From: Actinomycetospora succinea
Lineage (GTDB): Bacteria > Actinomycetota > Actinomycetes > Mycobacteriales > Pseudonocardiaceae
NCBI RefSeq assembly: GCF_004363095.1
Contig: NZ_SNYO01000001.1
Span: 248,001 to 312,000 of the forward strand
DNA length: 64,000 nucleotides
Direction of reading: 5' to 3'
The notes below the pieces were generated by a model. It ran no database searches and was not told the origin of the DNA. It was given only the letters and a program-made list of their open reading frames with translations. Positions within the stretch are counted from its first letter, which is position 1. Every line of letters begins with the position of its first letter. Shown here piece by piece: positions 26,571-31,283 of this stretch. The translations under genes and the position numbers were made by a program.

Positions 26571-26607
26571 GCGAAGCGTCCGTGAGTGTCGGTGGTGGCC
26601 GGTAGAC

Positions 26608-26623
26608 TCGAACACATGTTCGA
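26608..26623. promoter_or_regulatory. LexA SOS box overlapping the start codon of the HNH gene
   Basis: TCGAACACATGTTCGA is a full match to the actinobacterial LexA operator TCGAAC-N4-GTTCGA. The ATG of the DUF222-HNH gene (26616-26618) lies inside it. TAGACT (26603-26608) serves as a -10 hexamer ending seven bases before the ATG, so the transcript would be leaderless and LexA would block it at the start site. Confidence 0.9.
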
Positions 26624-28643
26624 TGACGGCTACCAGGAGGTGCCGGCGGGGCTCGAGGAGCTCCCCGTCGGCGCCGGGCTGGCCGCCGTGCTCGAACGGA
26701 TCGATCCGCTGCGGGTGTCGCCGTACGACACGGTGCGGCTCGTGGCCGCCCAGCACCGCCAGCTCGCCCACCAGCAGGCGTGCTTCCACGTCGCGGCGCG
26801 CGAGGCGTCGCTAGCCGACCCCGCGGCGCCGGGCGGGCGTGCCGAGCTCGACGTGCCGGCGGCCGGCGACGAGCTGCGGGCGGTGCTGGCGGCGTCGCGC
26901 ACGGCGGTGGGCCGGGTGCTCGACCTCGCCGAGGCCGCCGAGCGCCACCCCCGCCTCGGGGCGGCGTGGCAGGCGGGGCGGGTCGACGAGCAGCGGGTGG
27001 CGATCCTCGTGCGCCGGACCGCGCCGCTGTCGCAGGAGCACGCGTCCGAGGTGATCGAGCGGCTCGTGGACGAGGCGGGATCGCTGACGCTGTCGCGGCT
27101 GATCGACAAGGTCGAGGCGCTGGCCAAGGCGCTCGACCCGGAGTGGGCGGAGAAGCTCTACCGGCGGCACCGTCGCCAGCGCCGGGTACGGGCACGCTGC
27201 ACCGAGGCCGGCACGGTGAACATCTCGGCGATGGACCTGCCGCTGCCGGGCGGGGTGACCACGACCCGCCGGATCCACGCGCTGGCCGCGCGGGCCCAGG
27301 CCGCGGGACACCCCGGGCTGATCGACACCATCCGCGCCGACACCTTCCTGGCCGTGTGGGATCCCGCCCACGCGGGCGCCTCCGAGGAGGAGATCGTCGC
27401 GGCGGTGCTCGCGGCCGCCCTGCCCGACGACCCGCAGCCACGGCGCACGCCGGACCCGGCCGATGCTCCGCCGGAGGACCCGCCGTCGACCCCGTCCCGC
27501 AGGCGGCGGTCGACGCGGCAGTCGCGGTTCGAGCTGCGGGTCGGCCTGGCGACGCTGCTCCGGATCGACGACCGCCCGGCCCGGCTGCCCGGCTGGGGCG
27601 TCGTCCCGGCGGGCACGGCCCGCGAGCTCGCCGCGGCGTACGGCGACGCCGAGTGGCGGGTGGCGGTCACCGACGAGAGCGGGGCGCTGATCGCCGCCCT
27701 GATCACGCGCCACCGCCCGAGCGAGGCGACCACCACGCCGCAGGAGCCGCCCATCGAGGGTGCGCCGCGACCGGTGGTCGAACTGCACGTCCCTGAGGCG
27801 GCGCTCGACGCCCTGCGCCCCGGCGACTTCCCGGGCTGGGCGCGGCTGCTCACCGACCTGCAGCACCAGCTCGCCTGCTGGCGCACCGCCCGCGCCGAGG
27901 ACCGTGCCGCCCGGGAAGCGGAGCAGCGTGCCGCCGAGCAGCGCGCGGCCGAGGAACGAGCGGCCAAGGAGTGGGCCGCGGAGCAACGAGCCGCCGAGGA
28001 CCAGACGGCCGAGGACCGAGCTTCCGAGCTCAGCCCTGCCTCCGAGTGTTCGGCGGCCGACGCTCCCGGCAATCCGACCGCCGGGCTGTCGCCGTTCGGT
28101 CAGACCATCGGGCCGGACGCCGCCGCGTGGGAGCGGATCGCGGCGCGGCGGCGTCGAAGGGCCCGGGAGGCCGTCGCCCGCTTCCCGTCGGCGGCGTTGC
28201 GGCGCTGGATCACGATGCGCGACCGCTCCTGCGTCTTCCCGCCGTGCGGGGCGTCGGCGCTCGAGGCGGAGATCGACCACACCCTGTCGGTGCTCGAGCG
28301 CGGGCTCACCGTCGGGTCGAACCTGGGCCCGGCCTGCGGACACGACCACGACCTCAAGGACCAGGGCTGGCAGCTCGACCAGCCCCGGCCGGGCTGGTTC
28401 AGGTGGACCAGCCCCACCGGTCACACCTACGACCGCCCGCCACGGCCGGTGGTCGACGACCTCCCGGCGGCCCATCCGCCGGCCGTCCGGTCGAGCGCCG
28501 AGCCGCACCAGTACGCCGACGACGGGCCCCTCTGGGAGAACGACCCGTACCCGCGGACACCGGCGCGAGCTCCGGCGCCCGAGACACCCCCACCGACCGG
28601 CCGCCCGCCACCGCCGGACGACCCGGATCCGCCGCCGTTCTGA
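26616..28643 (+). CDS. DUF222 / HNH endonuclease domain protein (13E12-type)
   Basis: A 675-residue member of the actinobacterial DUF222-HNH family (13E12 repeat type). DUF222 spans roughly residues 30-350 (GRVLDLAEAAERHPRLGAAW, RVDEQRVAILVRR, FLAVWDPAHAG), and the HNH nuclease domain is at about 530-590: CVFPPCG, EIDHTLSV and CGHDHDLKDQGWQ. Between them is a charged repeat region of alternating EQRAAE and related units (about 425-480), probably a long helix. ATG 26616 is the family's usual MFDDG start and sits inside a LexA box, so expression should be DNA-damage induced. Substrate DNA is unknown. A paralogue with the same promoter design is at 48880-50559. Confidence 0.9.
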   Translation: MFDDGYQEVPAGLEELPVGAGLAAVLERIDPLRVSPYDTVRLVAAQHRQLAHQQACFHVAAREASLADPAAPGGRAELDVPAAGDELRAVLAASRTAVGRVLDLAEAAERHPRLGAAWQAGRVDEQRVAILVRRTAPLSQEHASEVIERLVDEAGSLTLSRLIDKVEALAKALDPEWAEKLYRRHRRQRRVRARCTEAGTVNISAMDLPLPGGVTTTRRIHALAARAQAAGHPGLIDTIRADTFLAVWDPAHAGASEEEIVAAVLAAALPDDPQPRRTPDPADAPPEDPPSTPSRRRRSTRQSRFELRVGLATLLRIDDRPARLPGWGVVPAGTARELAAAYGDAEWRVAVTDESGALIAALITRHRPSEATTTPQEPPIEGAPRPVVELHVPEAALDALRPGDFPGWARLLTDLQHQLACWRTARAEDRAAREAEQRAAEQRAAEERAAKEWAAEQRAAEDQTAEDRASELSPASECSAADAPGNPTAGLSPFGQTIGPDAAAWERIAARRRRRAREAVARFPSAALRRWITMRDRSCVFPPCGASALEAEIDHTLSVLERGLTVGSNLGPACGHDHDLKDQGWQLDQPRPGWFRWTSPTGHTYDRPPRPVVDDLPAAHPPAVRSSAEPHQYADDGPLWENDPYPRTPARAPAPETPPPTGRPPPPDDPDPPPF

Positions 28644-29197: not shown

Positions 29198-29971
29198 TCA
29201 CAGCTCCCGCGTCCAGGTGCCCAGCCGCCGCGCCACGGCGTAGAGCTCGTCGATCTCGTCGTCGGCCAGCACCGCGGGCAGGGCCGTGATCAGCCGCGGG
29301 AGCCCGGCCGGCGTCGCGACGAGGACGCCCTCCGGGGTCGACCCGCCCGGCGCGGTGGTCACCGACGCGGCGACGACGGCGAGGGCGCCCGTCGCGGGCG
29401 GCGCCACCCCGGGGTCGTCGCTCCGCGCGGCCCCGAGGAGCCGTCCGGCGCGCTCGGCCTCGGCCCGTATGCGGGGCACGTGGTCGACGGGCTCGCGGTC
29501 GACGGTCATCCGGTCGCCGTCGACGCGCACGGCCCGCCCGTGGTGGTGCTCGGTGTTCACGACGACCAGGCCCGGCGGGCCGAGCAGGACGTGGTCGAGG
29601 TCGCCGTGCCCCGGCCCCGTCGGCACGGCGTGCAGCACCCGCCACGGCGGGCGGCGCTGCGCGAGCGGGCCCGCCTCGGTCATCCCGCGCAACGCCTCCG
29701 CGAGCCGCACCTCGCCCTCGGCGCCCGCCGGCCAGGACCGCCCGCTCCGGTCGTCGGCCGGACCCGGCGTCCGCGCGGCGAGGTCCTGGTCCTCGTCAGC
29801 AGGTGGAGGACCAGCCGGAGCCGGCACCGGCAACCACCGCGCGAGTTCCGGCATCCCGGGCCGCGGGGCGTACCAGCGTTTCGCCCGCCAGTCCCACTGC
29901 GCGCCGGCGGCCTTGGCGTCGTCCTTCTCCCCGAACGGCACGTCCAGCCACGGCTGCTGCTCGCGGACCAT
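29198..29971 (-). CDS. DUF5710-NERD domain fusion protein
   Basis: A 257-residue protein with two recognisable parts. Residues 8-36 (WLDVPFGEKDDAKAAGAQWD, then RAKRWYAP) match the DUF5710 motif, a short module found in primase-like and mobile-element proteins. From about residue 80 a nuclease-related NERD domain follows: GAEGEVRLAEALR, then the core GHGDLDHVLLGPPGLVVVNTE with the Asp and Glu expected in restriction-endonuclease-like folds. The usual Lys after Glu (ExK) is not obvious (NTEHHHG), so catalysis is uncertain. It probably acts on nucleic acid, but no substrate is known. Upstream gene on the same strand is the photolyase-like gene, 36 bases away. Confidence 0.72.
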   Translation of the reverse strand: MVREQQPWLDVPFGEKDDAKAAGAQWDWRAKRWYAPRPGMPELARWLPVPAPAGPPPADEDQDLAARTPGPADDRSGRSWPAGAEGEVRLAEALRGMTEAGPLAQRRPPWRVLHAVPTGPGHGDLDHVLLGPPGLVVVNTEHHHGRAVRVDGDRMTVDREPVDHVPRIRAEAERAGRLLGAARSDDPGVAPPATGALAVVAASVTTAPGGSTPEGVLVATPAGLPRLITALPAVLADDEIDELYAVARRLGTWTREL

Positions 29972-30007: not shown

Positions 30008-31246
30008 TCACCGGTCCGGCTGCGCCGGCATCCCCTTGCGCCAGGCCGTGAACGACTGCATCCGCCCGGCGCGCGGCCGGAAGAGCCACGGGTACGGGTG
30101 CACGACGGCCGGCTCGAGCTCGGCGGCGCGCCGCCGGAAGCCGGGCACCGGCGCGAAGGTCACGGCGAGGCGGCGCCCGGCGAGCTCGTCGGCCACCCGC
30201 CCGCGGTGGATCTCGACGGGCCGCCGGGTCGCGAGGTCGGCCAGCGTCTCGGCGAGGAACACCAGCCGCTTGCCCGAGAGCGTCAGCCGCCGCAGCAACG
30301 GCTCGTCGAAGCAGAACACCGCCGGGACGTCGGGGTGCGCGGCCAGGGCAGGGTCGGCGTCGCCGAGCGACTCCGCGGTCAGCCACACGGCGTCGACCTC
30401 CCCCGACGGCGACGACTCCGGCCCCGCGGTCACCGCCGGGTCGGGGTCGCCGCGCAGCAGGTCCGAGATCGGGGCCCGGGTGGTGCGCTCGTCCGCCGGC
30501 CACGACGCCACCGGGCACGCGTCGCGCAGCGCGCACCCGCGGCACAGGGACGGCGCCCGCTTCTGCACCTGCCACCGCGAGAACGCGTAGGCCTTCCCGT
30601 TGCCCGCGCCCGTCGTCCACTGCCAGTTCAGGCGGTTGGCGGCCCGGGAGCCGTCGAGGAGGTGGGTGAAGAACGCCTCCTCGCCGTCGCGCCAGCGGGC
30701 GCCGGCGCGCACGGTCCACTGGCTGGCCAGCCACATCCGCGTCTGGTTCACCAGCCAGCCGTCGGTGTGGAGCTCCTCGAGGGTCGCGTCCATGCACGCC
30801 ATGTCCCGCGGCCACGGCTCGTCCCACGGCTCCGGCGGTGACGGCGGGTGGGCGCGCAGCTCCTCGCGCAGCGCGGGCTCGCCGTCGCGGCCGAAGCGGG
30901 CGTAGAGGTGCCGGGTGAACTCCTGCCAGGTCAGCTCGTCGCGGTACTTGCGGCGGTCGTTCGCCGGCGCGTCGGCGACGTGGTCCCACAGCGCGGGCAG
31001 GCCGACGAGCTGGTAGCGGATGTACGGCGACATCCGCGAGGCCCCGCGCCGCGACTCGGGCAGCACCTGGTTGCGACGGCCCGCGTAGCCGGTGACGTCG
31101 AGCGCGGCCAGCGCCGCGTCGGCCGCGGTCTGCCCGCCGCGGAACGAGCGCGACGCGGCAGGGGTGTCGCACGCGAGGTCGGCGAGGTGCTCGCGGACGA
31201 ACGCCACCGCGGCGTCGGGGCCCGGCGCGGGCACGGGGAGCTGCAT
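30008..31246 (-). CDS. Photolyase/cryptochrome-like protein with reversed domain order
   Basis: A 412-residue flavoprotein candidate. Residues 1-250 match the FAD-binding domain that is normally C-terminal: GRRNQVLPESRRGASRMSPY, DELTWQEFTRHLYARFG, DGWLVNQTRMWLAS, and LLDGSRAANRLNWQWTTGAG. Residues 285-405 match the alpha/beta antenna domain that is normally N-terminal (VDAVWLTAESLGD, FCFDEPLLRRLTLSGKRLVF, VPGFRRRAAELEPAVVHPYP). Cys151, Cys235, Cys238 and Cys244 are placed like the four ligands of the iron-sulfur bacterial cryptochromes/photolyases (one before the GWxxNxxRM helix, then CxxC and a close fourth). The likely role is DNA repair or light sensing. ATG 31246 is chosen; a TTG at 31273 is possible. 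Confidence 0.75.
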   Translation of the reverse strand: MQLPVPAPGPDAAVAFVREHLADLACDTPAASRSFRGGQTAADAALAALDVTGYAGRRNQVLPESRRGASRMSPYIRYQLVGLPALWDHVADAPANDRRKYRDELTWQEFTRHLYARFGRDGEPALREELRAHPPSPPEPWDEPWPRDMACMDATLEELHTDGWLVNQTRMWLASQWTVRAGARWRDGEEAFFTHLLDGSRAANRLNWQWTTGAGNGKAYAFSRWQVQKRAPSLCRGCALRDACPVASWPADERTTRAPISDLLRGDPDPAVTAGPESSPSGEVDAVWLTAESLGDADPALAAHPDVPAVFCFDEPLLRRLTLSGKRLVFLAETLADLATRRPVEIHRGRVADELAGRRLAVTFAPVPGFRRRAAELEPAVVHPYPWLFRPRAGRMQSFTAWRKGMPAQPDR

Positions 31247-31283
31247 CCACCAGCGGTACCCCGTCGTGGGCAATCATGCGCGG

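Follow-up and report, generated by a model that had tools for sequence, protein, structure and literature searches.

A reverse-order photolyase of Actinomycetota with a predicted cyclobutane pyrimidine dimer pocket and four candidate iron-sulphur ligands

We analyzed a 64,000-nucleotide window of the Actinomycetospora succinea genome (assembly GCF_004363095.1, contig NZ_SNYO01000001.1, positions 248,001 to 312,000), whose minus strand carries a photolyase-like gene with the catalytic, flavin adenine dinucleotide (FAD)-binding domain first and an alpha/beta domain second. The features of this gene are listed below in window positions; FeS-BCPs are the PhrB-type (6-4) photolyases with four iron-sulphur (Fe-S) cysteine ligands.

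30008..31246, minus strand: reverse-order photolyase gene, 412 amino acids, ATG start
30581..31138, minus strand: FAD (catalytic) domain core, residues 37-222
30794..30796, minus strand: Cys151, candidate Fe-S ligand 1 (120/120 listed relatives; Cys in 12/12 FeS-BCPs)
30542..30544, minus strand: Cys235, candidate Fe-S ligand 2 (conservation, alignment, spacing)
30533..30535, minus strand: Cys238, candidate Fe-S ligand 3 (conservation, alignment, spacing)
30515..30517, minus strand: Cys244, candidate Fe-S ligand 4 (conservation, alignment, spacing)
30392..30499, minus strand: linker, variable within the family, residues 250-285 (family alignment and structure model)
30035..30391, minus strand: C-terminal alpha/beta (antenna-type) domain, residues 286-404 (profile comparison, PF00875, structure comparison)

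An in-frame TTG at 31273 offers a possible alternative start; the starts of many aligned relatives cluster near the annotated ATG. The closest named relatives are Actinomycetospora proteins, with 93% identity to that of A. rhizophila. A homologue search scored 7993 candidates, 3847 of them at E ≤ 0.001, and the best 120 form our actinobacterial-type set. Pfam recognized PF03441 at residues 103-222 (E 5e-14) and, at E ≤ 1, nothing else in the protein, with no N-terminal DPRP domain (PF04244). The top NCBIfam match was an 8-HDF-type photolyase model, far under its cut-off (65 vs 884.6 bits), while the top Protein Data Bank (PDB) sequence matches were class I photolyases, whose alignments begin at query residue 38. 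Class I cyclobutane pyrimidine dimer (CPD) photolyases have their alpha/beta domain at the N-terminus, whereas here the FAD region starts near residue 38. The full-length structure model was confident (pLDDT 95.9, pTM 0.94), and its linker had little regular structure (a strand at 256-257 and short helices at 262-264 and 270-274). A sequence-only reading of this DNA had proposed that the domains are reversed, and this order is confirmed, the FAD domain (PF03441, 103-222) preceding the alpha/beta domain (286-404).

The identity of the C-terminal half required profile comparisons. Pfam gave no family match for the isolated 133 residues; among the C-terminal parts of 49 family members, 8 had a PF00875 (DNA_photolyase) match at E ≤ 1, with 0.0056 as the lowest value, and one matched DUF1702. 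Precomputed annotations list PF00875 in 0/120 of the best actinobacterial-type relatives. When hidden Markov models were compared with each other, the profile of the 49 C-terminal sequences matched that of 17 same-order canonical alpha/beta domains over columns 8-77 of 133 (P 2.5e-6, probability 88.8), and the control comparison with 17 domains of Usp, which also has an alpha/beta fold, was negative (P 0.22). We then built wider profiles from segments of 117/120 actinobacterial-type proteins (72 after redundancy filtering), 103/120 Deinococcus/Cyanobium-type proteins (71) and 116/120 NewPHL-type proteins (82). The actinobacterial profile matched the Deinococcus/Cyanobium one (P 3e-24), which in turn matched the canonical domains (P 2.7e-13). 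The NewPHL-type profile had no good match among the Deinococcus/Cyanobium (P 0.0063), canonical (0.06) and actinobacterial (0.81) profiles. Against Usp, the wider set gave 0.24 (actinobacterial), 0.093 (Deinococcus/Cyanobium), 0.28 (NewPHL-type) and 0.012 (canonical).

The Deinococcus-type relative P0140 shows the arrangement directly, with PF03441 at 87-204 and PF00875 at 286-383, both above cut-off, so that homologues with the same domain order, which the sequence-only reading had proposed to look for, do exist. It is one of seven relatives from the Deinococcus/Cyanobium- and NewPHL-type sets that we scanned with Pfam, two of them chosen for a listed PF00875. In P0219, P0214 and P0211 PF00875 fell under cut-off at the same place as in P0140, and the scan did not find it in P0203, P0169 and the NewPHL-type P0245. 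Precomputed PF00875 annotations occur in 2/120 listed Deinococcus/Cyanobium-type proteins and 0/120 listed NewPHL-type ones. All 50 structural matches listed for a model of the isolated domain were photolyases or cryptochromes.

Could this half instead be an unrelated alpha/beta domain that merely resembles an antenna domain? The missing Pfam match in the window sequence would fit that idea, as would the Foldseek E of just 3.4e-3, weak taken alone, and a PDB sequence search with the C-terminal family profile, which returned three chance matches and no photolyase. Given the profile matches chained through the Deinococcus relatives, the negative Usp control and the unanimous structural matches, we rejected this explanation, which we regard as very improbable. 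By these comparisons the second half is a genuine photolyase antenna-type domain, and the earlier proposal that residues 285-405 adopt the photolyase alpha/beta fold is supported.

We next compared residues across 63 FAD domains picked from larger sets (15 actinobacterial-type, 13 Deinococcus/Cyanobium-type, 8 NewPHL-type, 15 class I and 12 FeS-BCP). Cys151, Cys235, Cys238 and Cys244 are invariant in the best 120 actinobacterial-type relatives and all align with cysteines of FeS-BCPs (12/12), in keeping with the earlier suggestion that they occupy the ligand places of these enzymes. Their spacing is 84/3/6 in 15/15 actinobacterial rows vs 88-89/3/13 in 12/12 FeS-BCPs. The four cysteines are also present in 120, 118, 120 and 119 of the 120 listed Deinococcus/Cyanobium-type proteins. 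In the listed NewPHL-type proteins (P0241-P0360) a cysteine fits ligand 1 by motif in 106/120, without conservation of the other three; in the aligned NewPHL-type rows the ligand 1 column holds a cysteine in 4/8. Such conservation makes it likely that the window protein binds an iron-sulphur cluster. The shared cysteines would also fit a protein that repairs (6-4) photoproducts, as the FeS-BCPs do.

The residues of the lesion pocket point elsewhere. E283, W286, N349, M353 and W392 of the A. nidulans photolyase, which together with R350 we take to be CPD-binding residues, correspond to E104, W107, N167, M171 and W210, each found in 15/15 rows of the actinobacterial-type clade. At these five positions the FeS-BCPs carry V/I, W, H, L and W/Y/F, with V/I, H and L in 12/12 where the window protein has Glu104, Asn167 and Met171; the states of these three are shared by 12/15, 15/15 and 12/15 class I rows. 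Thus the lesion-side His of the FeS-BCPs (12/12) is replaced by Asn167, as in class I CPD photolyases, with which the window protein has the five pocket residues in common, though not R350 (Gln168). All five also occur in 8/8 NewPHL-type rows. Because these CPD-type residues are kept, we predict repair of CPDs, the most frequent damage done by ultraviolet light, rather than of (6-4) photoproducts, which we consider unlikely as the substrate. The predicted pocket is of the CPD type and stands together with Fe-S-type cysteines in one protein. The suggestion of a permuted, possibly Fe-S photolyase is supported; the cysteines resemble those of PhrB, and the pocket does not (Asn167 vs His in 12/12). 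We rejected filing the protein under FeS-BCP, as it has no PF04244 domain and its Asn167 is not His.

Trp185 and Trp208 align with Trp367 and Trp390 of the A. nidulans enzyme, presumably members of its electron chain, and Trp141 may stand for Trp314 (12/15 rows, in a loosely aligned stretch). From a list of thirteen FAD contacts published for A. nidulans in PMC9426592, twelve were mapped, and seven of these are identical in the window protein.

We consider it probable, from the sequence comparisons above, that the gene encodes a photolyase with its FAD domain first and its alpha/beta domain second, likely with a [4Fe-4S] cluster, that would carry out light-driven CPD repair, and that this protein is likely one of the reverse-order class (SPL/Phr6/NewPHL), within a mainly actinobacterial clade. 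Blue or UV-A light would excite reduced FAD in the N-terminal domain, and the excited flavin would donate an electron to a CPD that has flipped into the pocket, to be returned once the ring splits. Trp208 and Trp185 could supply electrons to oxidised FAD. The cluster, where the FAD domain ends, would be structural. The C-terminal domain would lie alongside the FAD domain, like its N-terminal counterpart in ordinary photolyases, and would shield or feed the flavin.

In the tree of the 63 FAD domains, the actinobacterial-type sequences formed their own clade (15/15 rows, one from a Myxococcota metagenome-assembled genome) on a long branch with support 100/100. With the FeS-BCPs removed, the reverse-order rows separated from class I at 100/99. 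The earlier claim of a distinct branch is borne out by this clade; the reverse order as such is already published for NewPHL, SPL and Phr4/5/6. Since long branches meet in the tree, the shared C-terminal domain weighs equally with it in the case for the reverse order having arisen once.

Several observations weigh against the proposed reading as a reverse-order Fe-S CPD photolyase. The three reverse-order sets grouped at just 88/86, and approximately unbiased (AU) tests do not reject a clade with FeS-BCPs (p 0.36) or with class I (p 0.43). The PF03441 match spans profile positions 3-127 of 203 only. The CPD-contact Arg350 is replaced by Gln168 in 15/15 clade rows, and the FAD contacts Thr240, Leu243, Trp280, Arg287 and Asp382 by Ala69, Met72, Tyr101, Gln108 and Ser200, of which Ala69, Gln108 and Ser200 are invariant across the 15 rows. 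These clade-wide changes around the flavin and in one CPD contact would suit a cryptochrome-like light sensor no longer capable of repair, an alternative we hold slightly less likely still than (6-4) repair; five of the six CPD-pocket positions are kept, which argues against it. Finally, PMC9426592 predicts (6-4) activity for the relatives Phr4/5 and Phr6, on the basis of their cysteines and of how Synechococcus and E. coli survive UV-C, and this speaks for (6-4) repair by the window protein, for which we predict CPD repair.

Reverse-order photolyases are known from three earlier descriptions, NewPHL (2020), SPL (2021) and cyanobacterial Phr4/5/6 (2022). Xu et al. in 2021 (MBE) reportedly described an SPL FAD domain with four cysteines and a CPD-type pocket, like the window protein, and are said to have assayed a Rhodococcus fascians protein; the CPD repair reported for this SPL would tell against (6-4) repair here. 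Rhodococcus proteins are present among the relatives of the window protein, and four Rhodococcus/Rhodococcoides genomes each hold two PF03441 genes, of which one is the reverse-order gene, so that the R. fascians SPL is probably orthologous to it. PMC9498864 and PMC9178010 cite Xu 2021 for the SPL class and its possible ancestry, and PMC9649867 is a further source on this class. SPLs are described in such citing literature as short, possibly ancestral CPD enzymes without an alpha/beta domain, whereas the window protein has such a domain at its C-terminus.

PMC13274461 credits Emmerich 2020 with the inverted-topology "NewPHLs or SPLs" and with CPD repair in single-stranded DNA. NewPHL (Emmerich et al. 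2020, NAR), as described in citing papers, shares the FAD-first order with the window protein. By profile, the C-terminal part of NewPHL-type proteins is not similar to the window-type domain (P 0.81), and these proteins lack the last three cysteines; we rejected filing the window protein, which has all four, under NewPHL.

PMC9426592 reports that Phr4/Phr5 and Phr6 from marine Synechococcus and Cyanobium are likewise reversed, with the FAD domain first, the photolyase domain second and four cysteines, which in RS9916 Phr4 (C169/254/257/263) are spaced nearly as in the window protein; it also reports Phr7, with a Z-domain and, as stated there, without Fe-S cysteines. P0214 (Cyanobium PCC 7001) is presumably the Phr6 of that strain. 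These proteins fall in a different clade from the window protein, whose gene is one ORF whereas phr4/phr5 are split, and its Gln108, Gln168 and Ser200 stand where the Deinococcus/Cyanobium rows have Arg (12/13), His (13/13) and Asp (13/13). A plasmid of Deinococcus sp. QL22 carries a reverse-order photolyase as two overlapping ORFs (L085:1396-2169 and 2166-2687), one for the FAD half and one for the alpha/beta half, like the split phr4/phr5 of marine Synechococcus; in the tree this protein lies outside the remaining Deinococcus/Cyanobium rows. Four other relatives of 688-709 amino acids (P0156, P0158, P0159 and P0160) are listed with both uracil-DNA glycosylase PF03167 and PF03441, the glycosylase part of P0156 lying C-terminal to the reverse-order photolyase.

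We further investigated how the gene is distributed. It occurs in 24/296 Actinomycetota genomes (E ≤ 1e-40) from 18 genera, and PF04244, the N-terminal domain of FeS-BCPs, in 44/296 (a smaller first sample, with 19/149, was superseded by this count). PF04244 was found in 22/24 carriers, all but G148 and G168, vs 22/272 non-carriers (Fisher one-sided p 5e-19), and among the 131 genomes with PF00875 in 22/24 carriers vs 22/107 others (p 7e-11), p-values that are overstated because genomes are not independent. The four cysteines were present in 12/12 PF04244 proteins read. As 22/24 carriers already hold a PF04244 protein, (6-4) repair by the reverse-order enzyme loses further ground. PF00875 itself matched in 131/296 genomes at E ≤ 0.001, 128 of them above cut-off, and in 24/24 carriers, in G295 as a contig-end fragment only; another photolyase match in every carrier would suit a sensor.

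At 5/80 named loci an FeS-BCP gene lies inside the fetched flank (≤ 4 kb) of the reverse-order gene, divergent in L032, on the same strand in L052, L056 and L064, and on the same strand but partial at a contig end in L034. In two carriers selected from gene coordinates, G123 (L187) and G183 (L186), the two genes are adjacent on the same strand, and which of them comes first differs between the two genomes. Photolyase-related neighbours, where found, are thus (6-4)-type repair genes, which disfavors a sensor, although signalling genes were not searched for. Elsewhere in the source genome there are two PF00875 photolyases and one PF04244 protein; at the window locus there was no photolyase-type neighbour among nine nearby ORFs scanned.

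Downstream of the photolyase gene by 36 bases, window positions 29198-29971 (minus strand) encode a DUF5710 and NERD nuclease-related protein, a gene that stands beside the photolyase gene in nine Actinomycetospora loci too. Positions 26586-28643 (plus strand) hold a 685-amino-acid ORF with no Pfam match, the C-terminal part of which, we assume, resembles an HNH-type protein of the 13E12 repeat kind. We rejected a conserved operon at this locus: with the source genome counted, the downstream DUF5710-NERD gene was found at 10/104 loci and the upstream kinase-like gene at 13/104, counts that are lower bounds because 24 loci have a flank of about 1.5 kb. The loci sharing these neighbours are all from Actinomycetospora or the source genome itself, save L082 (Nocardioides). 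Across the 104 loci, with the same short flanks in 24, no family-wide gene context was seen.

Among the titles listed by searches of open-licence papers aimed at permuted photolyases, none was on such a protein. Separate searches touching on an FeS-BCP that neighbours or co-occurs with the reverse-order gene listed no title or abstract start on this, which in open-licence papers is not proof of absence. PMC12029717, in the passages searched, covers ordinary CPD and (6-4) photolyases. In the papers searched we found neither the C-terminal alpha/beta domain of the actinobacterial SPL type nor the association with PF04244 genes.

Published accounts of these proteins conflict, presenting them either as short, possibly ancestral CPD enzymes (SPLs) or as reverse-order (6-4) enzymes (Phr4/5/6). 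Our data place an alpha/beta domain at the other end of the protein and combine a CPD-type pocket with Fe-S-type cysteines, and the link to PF04244 genes suggests a repair pair for two lesions. Tentatively, and with somewhat less than even confidence, we propose that SPLs, at least those of Actinomycetota, Deinococcus and cyanobacteria, are full domain-swapped photolyases rather than antenna-less ancestors, and that in Actinomycetota they serve specifically as partner to an Fe-S (6-4) photolyase of canonical domain order, co-inherited with it and at times in one transcription unit. If this is true, rooting the photolyase family on the "missing" domain of SPLs would fail, because they would be full photolyases with their domain order swapped.
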